NCBI GenBank assembly: GCA_029066805.1
Contig: JAIEFT010000036.1
Span: forward strand, 1-64,000
Direction of reading: 5' to 3'
DNA from: Clostridiales bacterium
GTDB taxonomy: Bacteria > Bacillota > Clostridia > Christensenellales > Pumilibacteraceae
Length of the DNA stretch: 64,000 bases
Shown: piece after piece, positions 43,606-58,887 of the stretch
Layout: every line of letters begins with the position of its first letter
Position numbering within the stretch: the first letter of the stretch is position 1
Position numbers and translations under genes: made by a program
The notes under the pieces: generated by a model
Seen by the model: the letters and a program-made list of their open reading frames with translations, nothing else
Told to the model about the DNA's origin: nothing
The model's database searches: none

Positions 43606-43889
43606 TGACAAGTTTATAAGAATAAATGATAGCATGCTGCGGAATCGCCTGCGTCTGCGGCTGTTTTGGGCTGAATAATCCATATATATGTTTGACATTT
43701 TCCGCGCGGGCGTGTATACTAAGCTGTGTATCGGCGTCGGTTCTGACAAAGGAGTTGGCTGACGCCGTTATTGTCGTACTTGAAATTGCTGCGAAAAAGC
43801 GGGCTTTTAGGCTTTACATATGTTACGGCTTGCTTTGGCGCTGTCGGTTGCGGAACGATGAAAGAAGGTCTCGGAGGACTGTGATTATA
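43606..43889 (+). promoter_or_regulatory. Leader and promoter region of the 1488-residue lipoprotein
   Basis: TTGACA (43692-43697), 17 bases, TATACT (43715-43720) is a good promoter. The roughly 160-base leader has a hairpin CGGCGTC/GACGCCG (about 43733-43766). The upstream part of the ORF-track frame (43626-43889) overlaps this promoter and is not coding. No riboswitch is recognised. Confidence 0.65.
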
Positions 43890-46800
43890 ATGAAAAGATT
43901 TTACAAGCTTTTATGTGCGCTGTTTGCGGCGATATGCGCCATTGGCGTCGCAACTGTTTTTGTGGCGTGTTCGGAAACAACCGACAATCCGCCGCCGACT
44001 CCCAAGGAATACACTATCACGCTCATGCTCAACGAGGAGCAGGTGTGGGATACTTTTACCGGAAAAGCGGGGGACGAGGTCAAGTTTGAAAAGGGCTTGC
44101 CGTCCCGTAACAATTACGAGATGAAGGGGTGGAGCGCTACTCTTAACGGCGCGGCCGCACAGCTCCCTACCGTCATGCCCGAGAGCGACCAAACGTACTA
44201 CGCCGTATTTGTGCGTTACTACAATCTTACGCTCAGGGCGGGCGCGGGTACGCTTGCGGGCGACGGCAACATTCGCGCCGAAGAAGGACAAAGCCTTTAT
44301 TCGCTTGTTAAGGATGTTGCGCCTACCGCGCCGGGCTCGTCCAAGTTTGACGGCTGGTATTACGGCAACAAAAAGATAGACGCTCAAACTTCCGATACAG
44401 TCACTGGCACGCTTACGCTTGACGCTAGATACACCGTAGATTACACCATTAATATATTCAAGCAAAACGACTACAAGTCCGACGACTACACCAAGGTGGA
44501 GACCGACACGGTCGAAAAGTCCGGGTTTATAGGAAGTTCGCCGCGCGACAGCGAGTACCCTTCCTATCCGGGATTTGAGTTCGACGAGCAAAAAAGCGGC
44601 GCAACGTCCGACTTTGTGCTTTCGGCAACCGAGAAAAACGTGTTCAACGCGTATTACAATCTTCAAGCATACAGGCTCGTATTCAATCCCAATACTCCCC
44701 AGGGCTTGACCGTAAGCGGCTCTATGGGCGCTGCGGAGTGGGGATACAATGTGGAAAACACAATTCCCGACTGTGATTTCTCCATTACAGGCTATCGTTT
44801 TTCGCACTGGTCGTCCACTGCCGACGGCGGCGATAGGCTCGAAGTAGGCGATAAGTACAAAATAACCGACAGCACCACGCTGTACGCGGTGTGGACGCGC
44901 GGCTATGCCGACATCACCGGTCGGTCTTACGACTATATTTATGTTGTCGAAAACAACGACGGCAGCACCGTCGCGTACCTCGACAGATATTATCTGGACG
45001 AATTAGAGGGTACATACGACAAGACCACAAATACCGTTTCGTTCAAGGAGAACGGAAAGGTAATCTTGCGCGGCAAGCTCGATACCAAAGGCTATACTTT
45101 CGCGTACATAAACACGCAAGCGTATGTTCTGCATGCGCTCGGCTTGTCCAACGAGGATCTTTCGGGCACGATTGACGAGTCTGTAACGCTCATTCTGAGC
45201 GACAACGGCTCTGCCGTATATTCTAAGGACGGCGTCAAGGTTAACGGCACATATGCTCTTGACGGCGAGCAGCAGTCCATGAAGTTTACGGCGGATGACG
45301 GCGACAGCACGTTCTACTTCCGACTTTCGCGTCAGCTCACTGCGGGCGGCAATGTTGACGTGTTTGAAATTCGCAGCGACGCGGAAGTGGGCGAGTGGTG
45401 CAGACTTACCGACAACTATGGCGGCGGCTCGGACTACGCAGACGATTGCTATGTTCTTGAGCTAAACGGCTACGGCGAAGCTGTCATGCACGCAAAGAGC
45501 GGAATAAACTCTTCCGCCCGCGACTACGACGGCTATTACAGATATTCCGCGGGCGCGCCCGAGGGCAGATTGGAAATTTACACCGTGTTCGTCACAAGCT
45601 ACGATTCGGATATTTCGCGGGTCGTGCTGGTAGACCGCACGGCGACCGCGGCGGAGGACGCCAAATATAAAAAGTTCTACAAGCCTTGGGAGTTTGCTAC
45701 AACTGCGTACGCCAAGCCCGCGGACGGCGAAGAGCTTGACATCGAAACAGCGGATAGCGTCGTGCTCGACGGCTACGGCTTGTTCGATGACAGCGCCAAG
45801 TACACGCACGGCGGAGAAACGGTAAACGGCAAGTATACGCTCAACTATACAAACCGCACGCTTGAGTTTGGCGGTACGAAGTACTTTGTGGATATCCAAA
45901 CCGTAGGCGAGGGTGACGACGCGCGCTCGTATCTTGTGTACGAGCCCATGCAGAACAAGGACGAGTTTGACAAGCTATATGCCATAAGCGGTATCGAAAA
46001 TAGCTATCGTCCGGGCGCAACTTACGGCTTTAGGTTCTTCAACGACAACGTAGCTGTGCTTTACGTAGCTATGCCCGACATTAATCGCGCATTCAACATG
46101 CTAAACGTGTCGTTGCAGCCCGTTATCGAGGGAACGTACACCTCGCTCGGCGGCGGCGAGTATCTGTTTCAAGCGGATATCCCTGCCGAAGCGGTTTTGC
46201 TCATTCAGTATTATTACATAAACTTTTTCGGCAACCAAGTCGGGCTTAACATCTCCAACTTCGGCGACTTCAAGTTTAAGCTAAACGGCGCGACGACCGG
46301 CGAAGTATCGGCGCTAAGCGACGGCTATATCGGTATCGAGGTCGTTGAAAACGGCGTCACGTACGTGACTGACGGTTACGGCAAGGCTAAGTTCACCAAC
46401 GCCCAAGGTATTGTTACCGAGGAGCGCGATTACGTTATTCTCAACAGAGGCTTGCCCTGCTTGGTCCTGCGTTGGACGGCGGAAGAAATCGACGTAAACG
46501 GCAAAAAAGTAGAAGTAAGCAAGCAGCAGACGTACACGCTGATCGACGGCGAATTCAGAGAGTGCATCGACGAATACGGCAAGCACAATACGCAGTATTC
46601 GGCGCAGATTCCCGACACTACGTTCCGTTTGGTTGTTTACAAAGGCGACTACGCGACGCTCGCTTACGACAACGCCGCTACAAGGCAAATTACAATGTAT
46701 TCTTGGGGCAAGGTCGTTTGGGTGGACGGCGAAAAGCGGTTCGGCGTCTACGAAGAGAGCGGGATCGTCGGCAATACCGAGATTATTTTGCGCGACTTGT

Positions 46801-48356
46801 ACGGCGACTTTAAGTTCGGACTTAAAGAAGTGACGGTAAAGAGCTCGGACGGCAAGGAAACCACCGCGACGCGTTTATTCACATACGATTCGCCCGCGTC
46901 CGACGTGATTGACGGCAAGTTTGTCATAAACGGAAAGGACGGCGCGACGCTCGCGGTCGATCTTACCAAAGGCGAAGCCGAATACGCCGTGCCCAACGCC
47001 GACGGCGGAAAAACCACGGTAAGCGGCGAGTTCAAGCTGCGCGAGAACGTGCTTACCATAGTTTACACGGTAAAAGGCGAAGGCGAAGACGAAAATACGT
47101 ATATTCGCAGCAATGCGTTCAAGCTGATATACGAGAACAATGTTTTGACTTCGTTCATGCCCGTCGGCGCGGAAACCGGCACTTGGAATGACGCGACCGG
47201 CGTTAACGGCAGACTGTTGCTTTCGGGCGAAGCGTCGTCGGTCGACGGCGAGTATATCGGCACTTGGTACGGTTACGACCGCGACACCGACAGTATATCG
47301 GCTATAGACGGCACGTATGCGCGCACGGATAACACAGAGGTCATAGAGTATGTGTTCAAGTACAAGGTCGAGCCGAACGAGAGCATAGAAGGCGACGACG
47401 GCAGCCGTTCGTTCAACTTTGCGGTCGGCTATGACGCGTCGAGAATGCCTATATATAGGATATACTCCATTCCCGTTTACGTAGTTCTGTACGGAAGCTT
47501 GACGAGCACAATGCCCAGCTATATGTTGCGCGGCGGCGGCTACACCGACCTTACGTTGGTTGACACCTACAACAATTCGACGGTGGGACAGCTTTTGATT
47601 TATCCCGGCGCGAATCTACTGATAAAAGACGCGGTGCTGTACGCGTTTGGCACTAACGAGATCGAGCCCAGACCGCTGTTGTTCTTCACGATAATAGGCG
47701 AGGGCGAAAATATGCGCGGCATAATCCTCGACGGCACGTTCGCAGCCGAAAACTTCGGCAGGTTCGAGTGCGAGGGCGACGGCAAAGTGCTTACCGTGCC
47801 CGTGCTCAAGGACGCGGAAAGCGAAAAGTACGAGGACGAAAAGATCGTAGTAGACAGAATCTACTTTAACGGCTTAGGCACTGCTATGCTTATCGATACC
47901 AAAAACGAACGCTCTCTGCCCGTTATGTACTTGCGTTACAACACCAACACATACGCGCTTGTGTCTGTCTCCGGCGACAGCATAAGAATTATCGCGCTGT
48001 TCCGCTTGTATACCGGCACTAGGGAAGTAGAAGGCGACGACGGCGAGACTACCACCGAAACGCAGTACTTGGTGCGGTTTGACGACGCGGCGATTCGCCA
48101 AACGTTTAAGGGCGAAGGTCACACTGCGTTTGTAACCGACGGATTCGCTTCGGCGACCTATGCCGACGAGCGCGGCGAGCTGCATGTTTGCACGTTTGCG
48201 CGCCTTGACGAGCATCCCGAAGTTGTGGTGGTTACATACCTTAACGGATTGCAAATCGAGTACATGTTTGTCGAGGTGGACACCGACAAAGGCACGTTCA
48301 AGGTTTTGCCTGCGGACGACGACCGTATTCACGCCGAAAGCGAGCAAGGCGAGTAG
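43890..48356 (+). CDS. Large surface lipoprotein with Listeria-Bacteroides repeats
   Basis: The 1488-residue protein starts with a lipoprotein signal (KLLCALFAAICAIGVATVFV-AC, lipidated C27). Residues about 40-260 hold three or four InlB/Flg_new-type repeats (for example MKGWSATLNGAA, SKFDGWYYGNKKID, YRFSHWSSTADGG). The rest consists of many irregular beta units of about 100 residues with a recurring DGYG or NGYG turn and VNGKYTL or VNGTYAL strands. No transmembrane or sortase signal is present. ATG 43890 is the start (GGAGG 12 bases upstream; GTG 43881 is an alternative). It is probably an adhesin or glycan-binding surface protein, by repeat type. The 3383-residue lipoprotein follows. Confidence 0.85.
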   Translation: MKRFYKLLCALFAAICAIGVATVFVACSETTDNPPPTPKEYTITLMLNEEQVWDTFTGKAGDEVKFEKGLPSRNNYEMKGWSATLNGAAAQLPTVMPESDQTYYAVFVRYYNLTLRAGAGTLAGDGNIRAEEGQSLYSLVKDVAPTAPGSSKFDGWYYGNKKIDAQTSDTVTGTLTLDARYTVDYTINIFKQNDYKSDDYTKVETDTVEKSGFIGSSPRDSEYPSYPGFEFDEQKSGATSDFVLSATEKNVFNAYYNLQAYRLVFNPNTPQGLTVSGSMGAAEWGYNVENTIPDCDFSITGYRFSHWSSTADGGDRLEVGDKYKITDSTTLYAVWTRGYADITGRSYDYIYVVENNDGSTVAYLDRYYLDELEGTYDKTTNTVSFKENGKVILRGKLDTKGYTFAYINTQAYVLHALGLSNEDLSGTIDESVTLILSDNGSAVYSKDGVKVNGTYALDGEQQSMKFTADDGDSTFYFRLSRQLTAGGNVDVFEIRSDAEVGEWCRLTDNYGGGSDYADDCYVLELNGYGEAVMHAKSGINSSARDYDGYYRYSAGAPEGRLEIYTVFVTSYDSDISRVVLVDRTATAAEDAKYKKFYKPWEFATTAYAKPADGEELDIETADSVVLDGYGLFDDSAKYTHGGETVNGKYTLNYTNRTLEFGGTKYFVDIQTVGEGDDARSYLVYEPMQNKDEFDKLYAISGIENSYRPGATYGFRFFNDNVAVLYVAMPDINRAFNMLNVSLQPVIEGTYTSLGGGEYLFQADIPAEAVLLIQYYYINFFGNQVGLNISNFGDFKFKLNGATTGEVSALSDGYIGIEVVENGVTYVTDGYGKAKFTNAQGIVTEERDYVILNRGLPCLVLRWTAEEIDVNGKKVEVSKQQTYTLIDGEFRECIDEYGKHNTQYSAQIPDTTFRLVVYKGDYATLAYDNAATRQITMYSWGKVVWVDGEKRFGVYEESGIVGNTEIILRDLYGDFKFGLKEVTVKSSDGKETTATRLFTYDSPASDVIDGKFVINGKDGATLAVDLTKGEAEYAVPNADGGKTTVSGEFKLRENVLTIVYTVKGEGEDENTYIRSNAFKLIYENNVLTSFMPVGAETGTWNDATGVNGRLLLSGEASSVDGEYIGTWYGYDRDTDSISAIDGTYARTDNTEVIEYVFKYKVEPNESIEGDDGSRSFNFAVGYDASRMPIYRIYSIPVYVVLYGSLTSTMPSYMLRGGGYTDLTLVDTYNNSTVGQLLIYPGANLLIKDAVLYAFGTNEIEPRPLLFFTIIGEGENMRGIILDGTFAAENFGRFECEGDGKVLTVPVLKDAESEKYEDEKIVVDRIYFNGLGTAMLIDTKNERSLPVMYLRYNTNTYALVSVSGDSIRIIALFRLYTGTREVEGDDGETTTETQYLVRFDDAAIRQTFKGEGHTAFVTDGFASATYADERGELHVCTFARLDEHPEVVVVTYLNGLQIEYMFVEVDTDKGTFKVLPADDDRIHAESEQGE

Positions 48357-48446: not shown

Positions 48447-48476
48447 TTGACATACATAAAATGTAAGTGGTATAAT
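48447..48476 (+). promoter_or_regulatory. Promoter of the 3383-residue lipoprotein
   Basis: TTGACA (48447-48452), 18 bases, TATAAT (48471-48476). The leader is about 165 bases and contains an internal terminator. Confidence 0.75.
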
Positions 48477-48482
48477 ACACAA

Positions 48483-48612
48483 AATACTAATACGGAAAGA
48501 AGTATCGACCTCGACTAATGGCGAGAAGGCGAAAAGTCAATCTGTGTTACGGTATAGTTTTTCAAATGTAACAAGGGCGTTGCAAATGTTTGCGGCGCTC
48601 TTTTGCTTTTTT
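48483..48612 (+). promoter_or_regulatory. Structured leader with intrinsic terminator (attenuator candidate)
   Basis: Between promoter and start codon lie a small hairpin CTCG/CGAG near 48513, a stem TGTTAC/GTAACA (48545-48550/48568-48573) and then a 12-pair hairpin GGGCGTTGCAAA/TTTGCGGCGCTC (48575-48600) followed by TTTTGCTTTTTT. A terminator inside the leader implies conditional read-through. No known riboswitch class or T-box sequence is recognised. Confidence 0.6.
48575..48612 (+). terminator. Intrinsic terminator inside the lipoprotein leader
   Basis: Hairpin 48575-48600 with several G-T pairs, followed by ten T in twelve bases. It lies 38 bases before ATG 48650 and downstream of the promoter, so it would stop most transcripts before the gene unless antiterminated. 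Confidence 0.7.
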
Positions 48613-48649
48613 AGTACACTTTAGGGTTAAACTTCTTATGGAGGCAGGT

Positions 48650-51600
48650 ATGAAAGGTAAAAGATGGTTGCACGCGGTTGTTGTTAGCATAGTCGCCGTA
48701 TTCGGCGCACTTGCTATTGCATGCGGCGGCGACGACGACGGCAAAAAGGACAACAAGCCTTTTACGTCACCGGCAATAGGCGTATATTATTACGACGCAG
48801 GGACTACGGAGTATTTGTTGTCGCTCAACGCGGACAAGACGCTTGCGCTTACGATCGATAACGCCGCAATTTCCGGCAAGTACGACGTCAGCGACAGCGG
48901 CGCGGTAACGTTCTCTGTCAGCGGTGCGGACAAATTGCTCAATACGGCAAAGTACGAGAACGACGAAGTCACGCTCACGTACGACGGCAATGTCTACAAA
49001 TTTTTGCGCAATGTCAATTACACCGTAACGTTTAATACCGGTTCTGGCAGCAAAATCGACAGCGCGACCGTGCGTAACGGCAAAAAGGTGACTAAGCCTG
49101 CCGATCCCGAATATGCCAACCATGTATTTATCGGATGGTACAAGGACGCTAATGCTACAAATGCGTTCAAGTTTGCCACGGACGTAGTTCGCGGCGATTT
49201 AACGTTGTACGCGGGCTGGGTGGATAAGACCGAGCGCGACGAGTACCAAGTTAAGTTCGATTTGGGCTACGGCGACAACTCGCTCTACTACACCGCTAAA
49301 ACGGTAAACGGCAAAGTTTACCCGACCGAAATGGCAGACCCGGCCAGAGCAAACTACACCTTTAAAGGCTGGTGGTTGAAGGATGCGGCAAGCGGCGAGT
49401 ACGCTACGCGCGTCGACCTCGGCAGCTATGTTTTTGCGCAGAACGAAACGGTGTACGCACTGTGGCAGGGCGCGGCGGAAGGCGGAAAGCTAGACGCCCC
49501 CATAGTTTCGGTCGATCTTGCGGGCAACAGATTGTCATGGGATTCCGTTAAAGACGCTTCGAGCTACTCGGTAAAGGTAGTCGATCCCGAAGGTAAGGAG
49601 TGGGAGCGGACTGTTTCGGGCACAAGCGTCGAGTATGCAGACAAGTTTACAAAAGCGGGCACGTACACGGTAGAGGTGTATGCGGTTTCGCTTGCGTCCG
49701 CGGACAAAAACTCGGCGGTCACAACGCGCAAGATTGTCAACAAACAGCTTGCACGCGTATCCAACTTTAAAGTAACGGGCGACGTGCTCACGTTCGGCGG
49801 GGTAGAGAATGCTACCAAATACCTGCTGTACATCACATGCGACGACGAGACACACGATCACAATCCCATAGATAACGGCAGCTCCAAGGAATACAACTTC
49901 GGCGATTGTGCTATGCCTGACAGCGGCATCAAATTCGTTGTGGAGGCGCAGGCGGACGGCTATGTCAGCTCGCGCTCGGAAGAATATGTGGTTGCCAGAA
50001 AGCTCGACGAGGTTACGGGCTTCAAGTACGACGAGAACACCCAAACGGTGTCATGGTCGGCTGTGCCCAATGCCGCGAGCTATTTAGTATCGGTAAAATG
50101 CGACGATCCCACGCACGAGGTTGAAACCGAAGTCAGAAACGCTACCGAAATATTCATCGGCGGATGCGCAGCCGGCTCGGTCAAAGTAACGGTCGTTGCC
50201 AAAAACGCCAAAAAGTACATCCCGTCGGATAGCGCGCTATACGCGGTGAACAAAACCGAATTGGCGGCTGTAACGGGTCTTGAGCTTATCGACACAACGC
50301 TTACTTGGAAAAAGCAGTCGCGCGTAAAGAAGTACATTGTTGACGTCAACGGCGTGACTAACGAAGTGGAAGGCGACAACAGCGTCGACCTAAGCAAGCT
50401 TGCCAATCTCACCTGGGAAGTAGGCAAGGTGTACGACATAAAGGTTCGCGCGGAGCTCACCGGCGGCGAATTGACGTCCTGGAGCTTGCCGTTCTCGGCG
50501 GCGTACAAGACTATGTCCGAGCTAAAATACAGCGAGGGCGTGGTGTCCTGGTCGCCTGTATTCGGCATTGGCACGGCGGGCTACAAGGTCGTGGTAAACG
50601 ACGCTGCGCCCGTATCGGTAAGCACTGCAAGCTATAAGGTAACGCTCACCGACAAGACCAATGTAATCAAAGTATATATCGGCAACGCCGACGCTTCCAC
50701 CGCCAAATCGATCAGCGTAAATGCGTACAAACTCACGCTTGACGGCAACGGCGGCACGGACGCCAATGTGCGATACTATGCAAAGGGCGATCCCATCGCG
50801 CTTCCTACAAGCAGCGAAGTCACTCGTCGCGGCTACAACCTTATGGGCTGGTACACCGCGGCAGAAGGCACAGGCGCGGCATATTACGACGGCGATCTTT
50901 ACGACCTTGACGCCGACCTTAAGCTTTTTGCGCGCTGGGACGGCAAGGAGTATACCGTAAAGCTCAACTATAACATAAACTGCGACGACACCGACGAGGT
51001 AGTTACCACAAAGGTTAAGTTTGGAAGCGAATACAGCTTAGGTGTTCCCACAACGCCCAAATCACTCATGCACGGCTTTTTGCAGTGGAATCTTGCTGCT
51101 GACGGCAAGGGCGCTGCAGTCAGCGATCTTTACGGCGACGGCATGGACGTATGGAATATAGCGGATGACAACGTCACACTGTATGCGGTATGGGCTGAGC
51201 TGTTCGAGTTCGAAAAGGAAGGCGAAGGCAACGACGCATATTACGTAGTTCGTCAGGGCGAAGGCACTCCGTTGGTAAACGAGGTTGTCATACCCGCGCA
51301 GTACCAAGCGCAAGACGACACGCGCATGTACCCGGTAAAGATAATAGGCGGTAATGCGTTCAACAAGTGCCATGATTTGACAAAAGTAACAATACCCGCT
51401 TCGATCGAAACGATTGAAGAAACGGCATTTAACAACTGTGCCGCACTGGAACAAATAAATGTAGATGGCGCACGTCCCGGCATCGATAATTTCTGGTCGG
51501 TCGACGGCGTACTGTACGGCATAAACAAAATATCGGAAAAGATCGAGCTCAAGCTTTTCCCTCGCGGCAGAAGCGGCGACTTTACGCTAGCCGACGGAAT

Positions 51601-54600
51601 AGAAGAGCTTTCATACCACAGCATGTACAATGCTAATATTAATACGCTCACATTGCCTTCGACGTTAAAACGTGTGGCAAGCGGCGCTTTTGAGTATAGT
51701 TCCATAACCGAGGTGATATTTGCCGAACCGAAGAATGCAAACGAAAATGTTGAGCCGTTGACTATTTCGAGCAACGCATTTAGATTTGCATTATCGCTCA
51801 CGTCGGTGACGCTTCCTTCACGTGAAGTCACCTTTGGCGACGGCAAAAATATTGACTTTAAAGCGGACTTCTTCCGTTCGTGCAGTGCGTTGGAATCCGT
51901 TTATGTAGCGCCAAACAACTCTAAGTATATGTCAATCGACGGTATGCTTTGCGAGATTGACCCCGCGACAAAAGAGATAACGTTGGTATTCTGCCCGGCA
52001 AACTATCAGTTTGGAAATAACGGACTGTACAAGACCGATAACAGGCTTACCGCAATAGGCGACAAGGCATTCTCCGGCGTAAGCGGACTTCGCGCGGTCG
52101 AAATTGACGTAAGCATTTCCCGTATCGGTAAAAACGCTTTCTCCGGATATACAACAAAGATTGACGAAGCGGACGTAAATGTAAGCGGCTGCTCGTCGCT
52201 CACCAATCTTACAGTGTTCGGCGGAAGGGTGACTCCGCTTGTAATAGGCGAGTCTGCGTTTGGTTCGGATAACAGCTCGCGCGCAAGCGTTTCTCTTAAT
52301 TTTGTAGACTTCCAGGACGGCTGCAACGTTACGGAAATACAAAAGTACGCATTTGCATATTGCCGTATATTGAGAGTAACGTTCCCCAACAGCCTTGCCA
52401 AGCTTGGCGACGGCGTATTCAAGGACTGCCGTCAGCTCGGCACGGTCACGTTTGGCGTAAGCGACGAGGGCGGCTTTGAGTTTGGCGAGGACGTGTTTAT
52501 GAACTGCGTCTCGCTGCGCAGGGTCATTCTTCCCAAAAACATCACCTCCTTTGAGGGCGGTGTGTTTGCTGGCTGTGAAAACCTTGAGACTATCGAGGTC
52601 GATCCCGAAAACCCCGTGCTTGAGTTTGTGGACGGCATACTGTACGGCAAGAAGGACGGCAAAATTACCGCTATCCACTTTGTTCCCGTGGGCGTAGATC
52701 TTACCGACTTCAAATTGCCTGACGGCATAACGGAAATAAGCGCGGGCGTGTTTGGCAATGCGGGCGGCTCGATTAAAAAGCTTACCATCAACAAGTACGT
52801 GACAAATATCGGTCTTGCGGCATTCGCGGGCACTGGTATAGAGGAAGTTATATTCGAAAACAAGGAGAATGACGAGGACGATGGTGCAGACACTCTTTCG
52901 ATAGCCGCACCGGCGGTAAGCACTTCTTACAATAAACAGGGCTTATTTGCCGAATGCACTAAATTAGAGAGAGTCGTTTTGCCCAAGCGCTTAAAGGCAA
53001 TCCCCAACTATATGTTTGCTAAATGCGATAGCCTCACATCAATTGACCTTGGCGGTGTTACGGAAATCGGGGCTTGGGCATTCTACTACTCCGGACTCAG
53101 CGACGAGCTTGTTATACCCAGGACGGTAGAAAAAATAAACCCTTATGCTTTTAGCAATTGCTCTAAATTGACGAAAGTAACGTTTGAGGACGAAAGAACC
53201 AAAGACCTTGTAATGTTGAATACAAAGGGCGAAAAAGACGGGCTCAATAACGAAAAGTCGTTTGTTACAAGAGTAACTAACGGAAATTACTTCGCTAATT
53301 GCTCCAATTTGACCGAAGTACATTTTCCCGAAAAACTTTTAAATATCGGTGAACAAACGTTCTACTACTGCAGTGCACTTACCACAGTAAATATTCCTGC
53401 GTCGGTGGAATCTATACGCGCGTCGGCATTTTTTATCAACATCAGCTCAAAGCTAACAAATATTAATTTTGCACCGCGTCCCAATTCCAACGCGCTGTAC
53501 TTGGAAGAAGGATTTACAACCGGTTATGGTAGCGACGTGAAATACTACGGCATCTTCTGTTCGCTGCCCGTCAAAGACGTAGTATTGCCGTCCGGTACTG
53601 TGCGTATCCCTTCATACTGCTTCTACAAATGCTCGAGTTTGGAAACGCTTTACATCCCCAACACAGTGAATAATACTGTTAACGAACAGGGTAAGGCTGT
53701 TGTTTTCGGAATAGGCAATAGCGTATTGCAGAATTGCTCGAATGTCACGAGTATAACGTTTGAAGCGGATAATCCTGCCGATCTGGCAAATGCAAATCAC
53801 CCCGGTTTGTCTGTGCCGAGCAACTTCATATATTACTGCAGCAAGCTTACTTCCATAACGTTGCCCGCAAGGCTCGCCGATTACTATTCCTATGCAGGCG
53901 CTACGGAAAAAACCGCAGTAACCGGCAACTTAAGCTCTACAAGCCTTACAAATATTAATGTTATGCCCGGCGGCAGAGATTACTCAAGCGTCGACGGTAT
54001 TATGTATAACGCGGCAGGTACGGAAATCAGATACTGCCCGCGCGGAAGGGTGGACGCCGTCACAATACCTTACTCCGTTTCTAAAATAGGCGTAAGCGCT
54101 TTTAAGGACTGCAAGAAGCTTACAGGTGTGACGTTTGCAGGCAAGCCCGCCGCCGCCGAAGGCGAAACTGTGGCAAATAACGATCTTGTAATAGATGAAG
54201 AAGCATTCTATAGTTGCGCGATAACCGAAATAAATATCCCCGCGCGTACTACCCGTATAGGCAAAAACGCATTCTGCAACAGCGACGTGGAAGTGCTTAC
54301 GTTTGAGAACAACTCCAAGCTTATTACCATAGAAGAACAAGCGTTTTACGGCACAGAGCTCAGCGGCACGATTACGATCCCCGCAAGCGTAACCACTATA
54401 GGCGTTAAGGCGTTTACTGCATCAAGCGGTCTTACTAATGTTACGGCAGTTAAATTCGGCGCAGCAGGCGAAACAAGCAAGCTCACCAATATAGGCGCAA
54501 ATGCGTTTGAAAAAATAGGCATAACCGAAGTATACATTCCCGATTCGGTCACTACGCTTGGCAACCAGGTGTTTGCTAACTGTTTGAGCCTTACAACCGC

Positions 54601-57600
54601 CAGCTTGCCGCTTACCGTAGATAACTTTAACGGCACGTTCCTCAACTGCGGCAACCTCACTTCCTTGACGTTCCGCGAAGTTGCGGGTAAAGCCCCCGTC
54701 CTCAACAAGACGGACGACGGCGCGGTGTACAGCAATGACAATTCGGTGCTTTACTACTATCCGCAGGACGGCGTCCCCGGCAAGGGTACTGCCAATGAGG
54801 GCGTACTTACAATTCAGTCCGGCGTTACGGAAATAGCGCCCACGGCGTTTGCGTTCAACCCGAATATCAAAAAGGTTGTCATCCCCAACACCGTCACCAA
54901 AATAGGCGAAAAGGCGTTCTACTTTATGTCCGCTTTGGAAGAAGTGGAGTTTGAAGCCGATAACGATACGACAAAGGCAACCACGCTTGTGATCGAGGGC
55001 GAACGCGCCTTTGCTGGCTGCAGTAGGCTCACTACTGTGAGGTTGCCTGCGAGATTGCAAACTATTGCTAAAGAGGCGTTCTATTACTGCACAAGCTTGT
55101 CCGACTTGACATTTGCCGAAGGCTGCAAGCTTACAACGATTAACGAAGGGGCGTTCAAGTACACCGGCAATTTAGGCAACGTGACGCTGCCTGCCAATGT
55201 GAGCAGCATAGGTAAAGAAGCTTTCCGTTACAGCGGAATAGGTGGCGTAGAAATACCTGCGGCATATAAGCACAGCACATCCAACACACATATATTTGCC
55301 GATTGTGCGAATCTGACTAAGGTCGAGTTCAAAACGCCCGCATCAAACAGAAGCAGTTTCCAGACGGTCAATTACATGTTCTACAACTGCCCTGAGTTAA
55401 GCGATGTGACGCTGCCCGACGATTTGACAAAAATAGGCACGTATACGTTCCAGCTCGATGAAAATCTGACGTCGATTAAATTTAACAACTCGAAGGGCCT
55501 GCTTACCACTATCGATAGCTATGCTTTTAGCAAATCGGGTATTGAGGAAATCACCTTGCCCGCCAACTTCACCACCATCAACGAAGGCGCGTTTTCCGAA
55601 TGCACCGCGCTTGTCGGTATAAACAGAGGAACAAACGAGCCTGCCGGAACGGTAAATCTTCCGTCAAAGGTTAAGACGATTGGTGCAAAAGCGTTCTACA
55701 AATGCTCTAATGTGACCAACATTAAGCTAACGGATATTACCGTTGCGCTTACCATCGGCAATCAGGCTTTTGCGGCGACGGGCATAAAGGAAATCACCAT
55801 TCCCGCAAAGGTTACCACGCTTAACAAAATTTTCAGCACACCGGGCACATCCGATGCTACCGATGTTTGCAAAAATTTGGAGACAGTTACATTTGCGAGT
55901 GGCAATACAGGACTTAAGTCTATCCCTGACAGCTTATTTATGATGCTTCCCAAGCTCAAAACGGTGGTACTGCCCAAGGGACTGTCAGGTACGGGTACAA
56001 ACGTGCTTTCAATAGGCAGCAGTGCATTCTACGGCACGGCAATAGAGGAAATTGAGATACCCAAAGAAACCAAAGAGATAAAGTCATCCGCATTTAGGAA
56101 CTGCGCGAACCTGAAGTCGATAACGTTCGAAAAGAAGGCGGACGGCACATGCGCGTTGCAGACGATAGCAGGCCATGCATTTGCGGGATCGGGGCTTACG
56201 ACGATTAGCATTCCGAAGTCCGTAAAGCTGAGCGCCTCAAACATGTTTGAAGGTTGCACTTCGCTTACGTCTGTCGTGTTCGAATCCGGCAATACAAATG
56301 TTACCGGCGGCTCAAATTCGCATCTATTCCGCGACTGCACGGCATTAAAGAGTGTTACGTTGCCTTCCGGGCTTAGCAGCATAGATAGCTATATGTTCTA
56401 CGGTTGTACGGCTCTCGAGAGCATCGAAATCCCGAGTAACGTTACCAAGATTGACGTCTATGCTTTCTCCGGCTGCACCAAGCTCGGTAACGTCACGTTA
56501 GGCAACAGCGTCGACCAAATCGGCAACTATGCATTCCAGAACAGCGGTTTGACGTCGATCGAGATACCTGCATCCGTAAACGCAATCGGCAACTATGCAT
56601 TTGGCGGTTGTGCAAAGCTTGAAACCGTAACCTACGGAGCATACAGCGGACTTCGCACAATCGGCAACTATGCGTTTAACGGCTGCACTAAGCTTTTGGC
56701 TATCAACATTCCCGAGGGCGTTACCACAATAGGTGATAGCGCGTACGAAAATTGCGATGCTGTCACTACCGTGACGTTGCCGAACTCGCTGAGAACGTTG
56801 GGCAACAATCCGTTCATCAACTGCGACTTGCTTGCCGAGATTGTCGCTCCCACCTATGAGGAGGGTGAAACAGTGCGCTTTACTACGGACAATAGCGCAC
56901 TCTATAACGGCGATAAATCTATTCTGTATGCATTCTACGATAGAAATGCTGCGTCGTTCACATTGCTCGAGGAAACGGTGGAAATCGCCTCGAATGCGTT
57001 CTGGAACATGCCGCTCACTACGGTTGTAGCAAATACTCGCGTAGTAGAGGAAGGTGACGGTTTATTGATCGGCAACAGCGCGTTCCGTTACAGCGGCATA
57101 AGCTCGATAACGCTCGGCAACAATGTATATATCAACAGTTATGCGTTTGCCAACTGCGGCAACCTAACGAGTATATCGATCCCCGACGGCGCTAATCTGG
57201 AGAAGCTTGCCTTTGACGGCAGCGCAAATCTTGCCAACATAACGTTTGAGGGCGATGTAACATACAGCGGGCATGCCGCAACGTTTGGCGAGAATGCGGT
57301 TGTCACCTTGACAGGTGTTGCCGTTGCCGGTGTAGAAGGGCTGGTAATAAAATCCAATGCCTACCAAAACGACACTGCCTTGGTAAACGTTGTTATAGCC
57401 GAGGGCGTCACCGTAATTCAAGACAATGCGTTTCTCGGAGCTTCCAATCTTACCAATGTAACTTTGCCTTCCACACTTAAGACTATAAGTACCGGTGCAT
57501 TCCGCGGTACTAAGCTTGCTTCGCTTACATTGCCTGCTTCTGTGGAAACCATAGGCAATGACGCATTTGTGAGTTCGGAGAATAACATTACGTCGCTTAC

Positions 57601-58801
57601 ATTGCCGTCCGGTTTGAAGTCGATAGGTTCGGGCGCGTTTGCGGGACTTAAAATGTCGTCAATCACTATTCCGAACACTGTAGAAAATATAAGCGCCGAT
57701 GTATTTTTATGTACCCTCTTAGGACAGACTTATGTTTGCGAGAATCTTTCATCCATAGTGTTTGAAGCCGGCAACACAAAGCTTACCAATATTCCACAGC
57801 ATGCCTTTAGGAATTTGCCTGCGCTCACGTCTGTAACGTTGCCCGATCACCTAGAGTCGATTGGTACGAATTATACGTCCGGAACGGGCTGGACTAGCTC
57901 TTCATTTATAGGCACATCGCTTACAAGCATATCCATTCCCTCTACGGTTACCGTAATAGCGGCTTATGCGTTTGACGGCGTTTCGACGCTTAAGAGCGTC
58001 ACGTTCGAAAAGGACAGCGACGGCAATTCCTCTCTCACAACAATCTATGGAAGTGCATTCCGCAATAGCGGCTTAACCGGAGAGCTTAAAATTCCCGCAA
58101 GCGTGACTGTAATCGAGGATTCTGCTTTCTACGGTTGCGACGGTATTAGTTCGATTACCTTTGAATGTGACGCGCAAGGAGCAAGCTCGCTTAGTAGCAT
58201 AAGTAAAGGCGCGTTCTACGGAACGGCGATAACCACGGTCACCATTCCCGCGAGTGTTAAACTTATCGGTGCAATAAATACTTCTTCTGCGCTCGGCACA
58301 TTCGAGGCTTGCACACAGCTTGCCACCGTCAACTTTGCATACGACGCACAAGGCAAGTCCGCGCTTGAATCGATAGGCAGCAATGTGTTCAAGAACTCCG
58401 GACTTACGCAAATTGTAATTCCCGAAACTGTAACGAGAGTGGACGCCGCATTTGCCGGTTGCGCGTCTCTTAGAAAGGTAACTTTGCCTAAAGATATATA
58501 TTATTTTGGCACAGGTATGTTTGCCAACCTTACGTCGCTCGAAGAGGTTGTCATCCCCGAGGGCGTCACATCGCTCGCTGCCAATTCGTTTGAGGGCTGC
58601 ACCGGTATTAAAAAGTTGGTTTTGCCGTCAACGATTACAGGCGTGAAGTCGCTAGCGTTTAAGGACTGGACGAATACGCAGACTATTTGCCTTACCGGCA
58701 TAGTCGCGCCGCGCTCCGGATTCGATCTCGACTGGGCGGCAGGCTGCAACGCCAACTTGGTGTGGAACTATCAGCCTCAAACCGAATCCGTAAATGGCTA
58801 A
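48650..58801 (+). CDS. Giant BspA-type leucine-rich-repeat lipoprotein
   Basis: The 3383-residue protein begins with a lipoprotein signal ending LAIAC (C25), then an acidic linker GGDDDGKKDN. The N-terminal part has InlB/Flg_new repeats (GWYKDANATNAFKF, GWWLKDAASGEYA, GWYTAAEGTGAAY). About five fibronectin-III-like beta units of 90 residues follow (LSWDSVKDASSYSVKV, VSWSAVPNAASYLVSV). From about residue 900 to the end there are dozens of LRR_5 units of about 23 residues (LTSVTLPSGL-SIG-YAF-GC). There is no C-terminal anchor, so it is held only by lipid. ATG 48650 has GGAGG with 5-base spacing. It is probably a surface adhesin or receptor. The long repeats may recombine. Confidence 0.9.
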   Translation: MKGKRWLHAVVVSIVAVFGALAIACGGDDDGKKDNKPFTSPAIGVYYYDAGTTEYLLSLNADKTLALTIDNAAISGKYDVSDSGAVTFSVSGADKLLNTAKYENDEVTLTYDGNVYKFLRNVNYTVTFNTGSGSKIDSATVRNGKKVTKPADPEYANHVFIGWYKDANATNAFKFATDVVRGDLTLYAGWVDKTERDEYQVKFDLGYGDNSLYYTAKTVNGKVYPTEMADPARANYTFKGWWLKDAASGEYATRVDLGSYVFAQNETVYALWQGAAEGGKLDAPIVSVDLAGNRLSWDSVKDASSYSVKVVDPEGKEWERTVSGTSVEYADKFTKAGTYTVEVYAVSLASADKNSAVTTRKIVNKQLARVSNFKVTGDVLTFGGVENATKYLLYITCDDETHDHNPIDNGSSKEYNFGDCAMPDSGIKFVVEAQADGYVSSRSEEYVVARKLDEVTGFKYDENTQTVSWSAVPNAASYLVSVKCDDPTHEVETEVRNATEIFIGGCAAGSVKVTVVAKNAKKYIPSDSALYAVNKTELAAVTGLELIDTTLTWKKQSRVKKYIVDVNGVTNEVEGDNSVDLSKLANLTWEVGKVYDIKVRAELTGGELTSWSLPFSAAYKTMSELKYSEGVVSWSPVFGIGTAGYKVVVNDAAPVSVSTASYKVTLTDKTNVIKVYIGNADASTAKSISVNAYKLTLDGNGGTDANVRYYAKGDPIALPTSSEVTRRGYNLMGWYTAAEGTGAAYYDGDLYDLDADLKLFARWDGKEYTVKLNYNINCDDTDEVVTTKVKFGSEYSLGVPTTPKSLMHGFLQWNLAADGKGAAVSDLYGDGMDVWNIADDNVTLYAVWAELFEFEKEGEGNDAYYVVRQGEGTPLVNEVVIPAQYQAQDDTRMYPVKIIGGNAFNKCHDLTKVTIPASIETIEETAFNNCAALEQINVDGARPGIDNFWSVDGVLYGINKISEKIELKLFPRGRSGDFTLADGIEELSYHSMYNANINTLTLPSTLKRVASGAFEYSSITEVIFAEPKNANENVEPLTISSNAFRFALSLTSVTLPSREVTFGDGKNIDFKADFFRSCSALESVYVAPNNSKYMSIDGMLCEIDPATKEITLVFCPANYQFGNNGLYKTDNRLTAIGDKAFSGVSGLRAVEIDVSISRIGKNAFSGYTTKIDEADVNVSGCSSLTNLTVFGGRVTPLVIGESAFGSDNSSRASVSLNFVDFQDGCNVTEIQKYAFAYCRILRVTFPNSLAKLGDGVFKDCRQLGTVTFGVSDEGGFEFGEDVFMNCVSLRRVILPKNITSFEGGVFAGCENLETIEVDPENPVLEFVDGILYGKKDGKITAIHFVPVGVDLTDFKLPDGITEISAGVFGNAGGSIKKLTINKYVTNIGLAAFAGTGIEEVIFENKENDEDDGADTLSIAAPAVSTSYNKQGLFAECTKLERVVLPKRLKAIPNYMFAKCDSLTSIDLGGVTEIGAWAFYYSGLSDELVIPRTVEKINPYAFSNCSKLTKVTFEDERTKDLVMLNTKGEKDGLNNEKSFVTRVTNGNYFANCSNLTEVHFPEKLLNIGEQTFYYCSALTTVNIPASVESIRASAFFINISSKLTNINFAPRPNSNALYLEEGFTTGYGSDVKYYGIFCSLPVKDVVLPSGTVRIPSYCFYKCSSLETLYIPNTVNNTVNEQGKAVVFGIGNSVLQNCSNVTSITFEADNPADLANANHPGLSVPSNFIYYCSKLTSITLPARLADYYSYAGATEKTAVTGNLSSTSLTNINVMPGGRDYSSVDGIMYNAAGTEIRYCPRGRVDAVTIPYSVSKIGVSAFKDCKKLTGVTFAGKPAAAEGETVANNDLVIDEEAFYSCAITEINIPARTTRIGKNAFCNSDVEVLTFENNSKLITIEEQAFYGTELSGTITIPASVTTIGVKAFTASSGLTNVTAVKFGAAGETSKLTNIGANAFEKIGITEVYIPDSVTTLGNQVFANCLSLTTASLPLTVDNFNGTFLNCGNLTSLTFREVAGKAPVLNKTDDGAVYSNDNSVLYYYPQDGVPGKGTANEGVLTIQSGVTEIAPTAFAFNPNIKKVVIPNTVTKIGEKAFYFMSALEEVEFEADNDTTKATTLVIEGERAFAGCSRLTTVRLPARLQTIAKEAFYYCTSLSDLTFAEGCKLTTINEGAFKYTGNLGNVTLPANVSSIGKEAFRYSGIGGVEIPAAYKHSTSNTHIFADCANLTKVEFKTPASNRSSFQTVNYMFYNCPELSDVTLPDDLTKIGTYTFQLDENLTSIKFNNSKGLLTTIDSYAFSKSGIEEITLPANFTTINEGAFSECTALVGINRGTNEPAGTVNLPSKVKTIGAKAFYKCSNVTNIKLTDITVALTIGNQAFAATGIKEITIPAKVTTLNKIFSTPGTSDATDVCKNLETVTFASGNTGLKSIPDSLFMMLPKLKTVVLPKGLSGTGTNVLSIGSSAFYGTAIEEIEIPKETKEIKSSAFRNCANLKSITFEKKADGTCALQTIAGHAFAGSGLTTISIPKSVKLSASNMFEGCTSLTSVVFESGNTNVTGGSNSHLFRDCTALKSVTLPSGLSSIDSYMFYGCTALESIEIPSNVTKIDVYAFSGCTKLGNVTLGNSVDQIGNYAFQNSGLTSIEIPASVNAIGNYAFGGCAKLETVTYGAYSGLRTIGNYAFNGCTKLLAINIPEGVTTIGDSAYENCDAVTTVTLPNSLRTLGNNPFINCDLLAEIVAPTYEEGETVRFTTDNSALYNGDKSILYAFYDRNAASFTLLEETVEIASNAFWNMPLTTVVANTRVVEEGDGLLIGNSAFRYSGISSITLGNNVYINSYAFANCGNLTSISIPDGANLEKLAFDGSANLANITFEGDVTYSGHAATFGENAVVTLTGVAVAGVEGLVIKSNAYQNDTALVNVVIAEGVTVIQDNAFLGASNLTNVTLPSTLKTISTGAFRGTKLASLTLPASVETIGNDAFVSSENNITSLTLPSGLKSIGSGAFAGLKMSSITIPNTVENISADVFLCTLLGQTYVCENLSSIVFEAGNTKLTNIPQHAFRNLPALTSVTLPDHLESIGTNYTSGTGWTSSSFIGTSLTSISIPSTVTVIAAYAFDGVSTLKSVTFEKDSDGNSSLTTIYGSAFRNSGLTGELKIPASVTVIEDSAFYGCDGISSITFECDAQGASSLSSISKGAFYGTAITTVTIPASVKLIGAINTSSALGTFEACTQLATVNFAYDAQGKSALESIGSNVFKNSGLTQIVIPETVTRVDAAFAGCASLRKVTLPKDIYYFGTGMFANLTSLEEVVIPEGVTSLAANSFEGCTGIKKLVLPSTITGVKSLAFKDWTNTQTICLTGIVAPRSGFDLDWAAGCNANLVWNYQPQTESVNG

Positions 58802-58842
58802 TATACACTTAAGCTGCTTTAGCAACAAATGAATACACAATG

Positions 58843-58884
58843 CTTTTGTACCGCCGGCATTATATAGTGTCGGCGGTACAAAAG
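58843..58884. terminator. Terminator after the giant lipoprotein
   Basis: Perfect 14-pair inverted repeat CTTTTGTACCGCCG/CGGCGGTACAAAAG with an AT-rich loop. The right arm ends 3 bases before the -35 region of the next gene. Confidence 0.65.
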
Positions 58885-58887
58885 TAT

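Follow-up and report, generated by a model that had tools for sequence, protein, structure and literature searches.

The locus raises the question of whether a 10-kb gene for a giant lipoprotein is controlled within its own leader and, if so, by what kind of factor. In the window, that is, the whole 64,000-nt stretch of DNA analysed, the leader is framed by the following features:

48447 to 48476, forward strand: sigma-A-type promoter, TTGACA-18-TATAAT with an extended -10 (TG), matching the consensus at 12 of 12 positions and aligning with the promoters of orthologs
48573 to 48612, forward strand: intrinsic terminator, stem at 48573–48602 and U-tract at 48603–48612
48640 to 48644, forward strand: Shine-Dalgarno sequence GGAGG, read from the sequence, before the ATG at 48650
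48650 to 58801, forward strand: giant lipoprotein of 3383 aa, with a lipobox, 3 Listeria-Bacteroides repeats and BspA-type LRR_5 in 21 stretches

From this promoter, transcription was predicted to start at about 48483. The terminator stem had 13 pairs and a loop of 4 nt, followed by the tail TTGCTTTTTT as far as 48612, and the isolated stem-loop folded with -17.7 kcal/mol. The original prediction had described a strong promoter followed by a structured leader and an intrinsic terminator 38 nt before the start codon of a 10-kb gene; the promoter was borne out by its full consensus match, and the leader and terminator by folding, terminator search and conservation. The 167-nt leader as a whole was moderately more stable than its shuffles (z -1.75; 11 of 200 shuffles equally stable), and the number of terminator-like matches in the region, 5 versus 3.8 expected, was not beyond chance. 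It is conservation, not match count, that places the terminator beyond chance, since a promoter-proximal terminator was found in the same place in 13 of 13 orthologous giant lipoprotein genes. These orthologs, from 13 genomes, were collected by similarity to the N-terminal 138 residues; 12 were open frames of 1086 to 3900 aa and one was cut short by its contig. Their common layout was a promoter, a hairpin with U-tract no more than about 10 nt further on (more in two leaders), a Shine-Dalgarno sequence and the start codon.

The terminator shares its 5′ side with a second structure:

48567 to 48584, forward strand: antiterminator-like hairpin UGUAAC(AAGGGC)GUUGCA, A1/G4 hexaloop at 48573–48578, -4.3 kcal/mol alone

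The stem is 6 bp long and the loop, AAGGGC, agrees with the loop consensus A-A-R-G-R-C. Because the 5′ arm of the terminator consists of the loop and 3′ arm of this hairpin, the two structures are mutually exclusive; in the whole window leader the terminator fold was favoured, with -38.4 versus -25.2 kcal/mol for the hexaloop fold. The presence of this alternative hairpin, together with a terminator in all the orthologs, supports the attenuator that had been proposed. A hexaloop stem of 3 to 6 bp occurred in 13 of 13 orthologs, with loops AAAGGC, AAGGGC or AAAGAA, all A1/G4, on stems that covary: ACAAC(AAGGGC)GUUGU, GUGAC(AAAGGC)GUCGC, CGAC(AAAGGC)GUCG, GGUC(AAAGGC)GACC and the UGUAAC(AAGGGC)GUUGCA of the window. 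When leaders were pooled and permuted with the loop as anchor, 75 paired positions were counted versus 53 in shuffles, a value reached by 0 of 20000 permutations; these pair counts exclude the MAFFT alignment, in which genome G017 is misaligned. The 40 distinct hairpins contained 26 double-change cells versus 10.6 after shuffling, and their inner three pairs were 95.8% paired versus 10.8–73.8% when slid. Among terminators with the same arm motif, the stem was present in 29 of 39 near TATAMT versus 1 of 61 without an adjacent TATAMT, two true lipoprotein leaders having been set aside from the latter figure; the near-promoter set was partly chosen with a pattern fixing two pairs, a selection of which the lipoprotein set, obtained from protein similarity, is free.

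The same leader was also found before genes of nitrogen metabolism. Two of the 32 exact consensus promoters examined in the genome of the window were followed immediately by a terminator of this kind, and the genes behind them, identified by their N-terminal sequences, encode glutamate dehydrogenase and type III glutamine synthetase. Genus-wide, the hexaloop-terminator leader occurred before gdhA in 11 genomes, before glnA in at least 10, and also before a small number of further genes for lipoproteins and membrane proteins; the A1/G4 hexaloop was present in 11 of 11 gdhA leaders, and the leader pattern was found 83 times versus 23 for a reversed control. Sister genera with an ANTAR gene carried the leader before glnA, a gene for a GltB-like amidotransferase and one for an InlB-type lipoprotein; like the gdhA leaders, these were mostly found with the pattern that already fixes two pairs. 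Pattern matches examined in ANTAR-negative genera were unrelated. In named Clostridia, a single hexaloop overlapping the terminator was present in 33 of 80 type III glnA loci, mostly as ACAGC(AAAGGC)GCUGU, and a double one in none. Promoter-proximal loop motifs in glnA leaders of these organisms were enclosed by a stem of at least 3 bp in 35 of 36 cases, and copies of this octamer at other positions of the loci in 18%. The single-hexaloop glnA leaders of named Clostridia matched no Rfam family at threshold, and a literature search of journals open without subscription returned no published account of them. Some variation was observed: glnA leaders of genomes G006 and G008 had AGC(GGGGUU)GCU, which lacks A1 though the ANTAR gene is present, and some glnA leaders retained just 2 contiguous stem pairs.

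A hairpin with an A1/G4 hexaloop and at least three stem pairs, overlapping a terminator, defines ANTAR targets (PMC3369931). In the window, an A1/G4 hexaloop on a 6-bp stem excludes the terminator, and an ANTAR gene is present in the genome. Leaders of this type resemble those of EutV/eut (Enterococcus faecalis), NasR/nasF and AmiR/amiE in the A1/G4 hexaloop, short stem and terminator overlap (PMC3369931, PMC8934654), and further resemble dual-hexaloop systems in the closing pairs (A-C/G-U or G-C/G-C), the ANTAR gene and the nitrogen-gene partners. They differ in possessing one hexaloop, which abuts the start site, and in including a giant surface lipoprotein among the targets. EutV antitermination requires both hairpins, and all described ANTAR antiterminators need two (PMC3369931), whereas a search for a second hexaloop hairpin (P1, 5–12 nt upstream) gave 0 candidates in 70 leaders and none in the window leader. 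In almost every leader, the hexaloop hairpin started 7–16 nt downstream of the -10 box, and therefore the transcript has no room for P1; because P1 is absent, the leaders were not assigned to the dual-hexaloop family. In 2022, a structural study of ANTAR-RNA complexes reduced the minimal binding site to a single hexaloop, without deciding whether such sites regulate genes; EutV was found to bind isolated hexaloops, and the authors expected single sites in settings free of the time constraint that transcription imposes (PMC8934654).

Exactly one ANTAR protein above the curated cut-off was detected in each of the 20 genus genomes, and none in 14 control genomes. In the 11 loci read (10 relatives and the own genome), its gene lay between glutamine-synthetase-like and purF-like genes. 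The ANTAR domain aligned with those of EutV, AmiR and Rv1626; the EutV RNA-contact residues Lys143, Lys149, Glu160 and Met172 were kept, Tyr164 was replaced by His as in AmiR, and Arg142 was not kept (numbering inferred from the alignment). The N-terminal half had no Pfam receiver match, and the usual phospho-Asp motif appears to be missing from it. In AmiC-AmiR, the ANTAR protein is held by a co-encoded sensor. NasS likewise is a co-encoded sensor that holds the ANTAR protein NasT (PMC3795266). The gene described here is similar to these in adjoining a possible sensor gene and in encoding an N-terminal part without a receiver match, but its neighbour is glutamine-synthetase-like. By analogy, as the receiver match is absent, control by a partner protein in the manner of AmiC-AmiR is a reasonable guess.

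The sequence evidence, namely the terminator with its alternative hairpin, the fixed loop on a covarying stem, the distribution and the single ANTAR gene, supports the reading that the leader, in its conserved part, is probably an ANTAR-like transcription attenuator reduced to one hairpin, and that the lipoprotein belongs to a nitrogen regulon; the latter placement follows from leaders of the same design in front of gdhA and glnA. The leader would act in the manner of an ANTAR attenuator, as a variant with a single hexaloop abutting the start site. In the default state, the terminator stem at 48573–48602 would form in the nascent RNA and transcription would stop before the 10-kb gene; an active ANTAR protein, presumably responding to nitrogen state, would hold the hexaloop hairpin at 48567–48584 so that polymerase reads on. 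ANTAR binding, the direction of control and the nitrogen signal are what we infer from these features. A hairpin that emerges at promoter escape may relax the time constraint of transcription. Among the possibilities named in the original prediction, a protein-binding antiterminator is accordingly the best reading, given an ANTAR-type hexaloop and one ANTAR gene in each of the 20 genomes.

These observations suggest that nitrogen supply may control a giant surface lipoprotein by way of a simplified version of a known switch, which gives a concrete, testable hypothesis for the control of the giant LRR lipoprotein. For a wider proposal the chances appear about even: that ANTAR attenuators in widespread use among Clostridia carry one hexaloop at the 5′ end of the transcript, where no recruitment hairpin would be needed as the hexaloop hairpin emerges at promoter escape, and that glutamine and glutamate synthesis and the giant LRR lipoprotein stand under one nitrogen regulator. 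Such sites would escape covariance searches that rely on two hairpins, and the leaders offer a natural set of conserved, easily testable single-hexaloop sites overlapping terminators.

The leader could instead be a true regulated attenuator with the hexaloop switch that is read by a factor other than an ANTAR protein, such as another RNA-binding protein or a pause or NTP effect at promoter escape. The loop consensus A-A-N-G-R-Y is stricter than the A1/G4 minimum, the P1 hairpin required in known ANTAR systems is absent, and the hairpin lies at the extreme 5′ end, as in initiation-linked attenuation. We nevertheless regard this as unlikely, since the single ANTAR gene per genus genome and the nitrogen-gene partners fit ANTAR closely and the clearly glnA-linked pattern matches outside the genus fall in ANTAR-positive genera. 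Hairpins at the 5′ end protect mRNAs, and high expression is expected of glnA, gdhA and surface proteins, so that the hairpin and U-tract might be a mere 5′-terminal stabiliser or a constitutive damping of highly expressed genes; stabilisation, however, would require neither the conserved U-tracts nor a conserved second hairpin whose loop is fixed and which excludes the first, and this explanation is given a low probability.

The hexaloop attenuator, preferred here, accounts for the downstream part of the leader, and the stems upstream have another origin. A search with the leader against 20 genus genomes returned two independent sets of relatives, one for 48467–48546 (element A) and one for the terminator, and the leader is composed of two unrelated parts, element A upstream and the conserved terminator downstream. 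The following features belong to the upstream part:

48477 to 48560, forward strand: inserted element A unit, about 84 nt, seen as an 84-nt gap in aligned orthologs and as a covariance model match
48553 to 48558, forward strand: TATAGT, presumed degenerate second -10 box (duplicate of 48471–48476), from the ortholog alignment

The covariance model of element A matched the window at 48465–48570 with 82 bits, and folding gave an upstream stem, UAAUACGGA/UCUGUGUUA, within the unit, whose ends are ambiguous owing to the duplicated -10 box. Alignment with ten leaders of orthologous lipoproteins shows the copy in the window as some 84 nt inserted after the -10 box and before the terminator hairpin, and TATAGT occupies the same place relative to the hexaloop hairpin as the -10 box of the orthologs. 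Element A would thus be a later insertion that shifted the promoter about 84 nt upstream. The window is thereby an exception in hairpin position, with about 84 nt between the predicted start and the hairpin, unless the weak TATAGT box serves as a promoter element too.

By exact-pattern, alignment and covariance-model searches, 116 copies of element A were found in 14 of 20 genus genomes, up to 40 per genome, including tandem arrays with a period of 83–85 bp; the exact pattern was not seen in other genera of the family. Each copy lay directly behind a -10 box, which together with some following sequence recurred at the downstream end in locus-specific variants. The next ORF was in the same sense at 66 of 80 loci, opposite at 11 and undetermined at 3 (contig ends), and the genes behind, named from N-termini, included lon, secA, lepA, nrdR, uvrB, gyrB, pyrG, valS, rpsF and others. 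Because it precedes unrelated genes and is lacking in aligned orthologs, element A was interpreted as a promoter-leader repeat and not a surface-protein sensor. Its upstream stem was 88% paired, with some double changes, in 88 copies, and may have a role as an RNA or DNA element; element A may be a small mobile element with -10 boxes as its insertion sites.

These findings leave the new sensor of the original prediction unsupported. That the upstream stems form a ligand-binding aptamer, i.e., a new riboswitch governing the terminator, is very improbable: the upstream region does fold stably, and 116 copies conserve its primary sequence, but these copies precede the unrelated lon, secA, lepA, der and valS, mostly with no terminator behind them, form tandem arrays with embedded -10 boxes and gave little pairing support in a first alignment, and aligned lipoprotein orthologs possess the terminator without the stems. 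A comparison of LRR lipoprotein leaders had been suggested as a way to a shared aptamer; what they share is the terminator and hexaloop hairpin (13 of 13), the upstream stems being absent from the aligned orthologs. The statement that these stems match no known riboswitch held, as no Rfam 15 family, riboswitch classes included, matched the window or related leaders at the gathering threshold. At relaxed thresholds, the single weak match was the RF04312 trpB motif, which is alike in having a hairpin followed by a terminator hairpin and aligned weakly over its full length, but the window leader scored 20.6 bits (E 1.3), well below the gathering score of 59 bits. A 17-codon ORF at 48518–48571 (MARRRKVNLCYGIVFQM), ending just before the terminator, was rejected as a leader peptide, having no good Shine-Dalgarno sequence, lying inside the inserted repeat and being absent from orthologs; it is probably a chance ORF. 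The complementary segments TGTTAC and GTAACA were rejected as an antiterminator, since they overlap the terminator by just one base.

Although terminator-like patterns are common in the region, it is hardly credible that the hairpin arose by chance, or that it ends an upstream transcript or an independent small RNA with no relation to the gene, when 13 of 13 orthologs hold the terminator between the promoter and start codon of the same gene and no good promoter lies between terminator and gene.

Directly 3′ of the giant gene, a strong terminator-like hairpin of 20 pairs (58841–58886) overlaps the start of a 417-aa ORF without a Pfam match. The protein encoded directly upstream of the leader (43626–48356) has 1576 aa and contains one Listeria-Bacteroides repeat.
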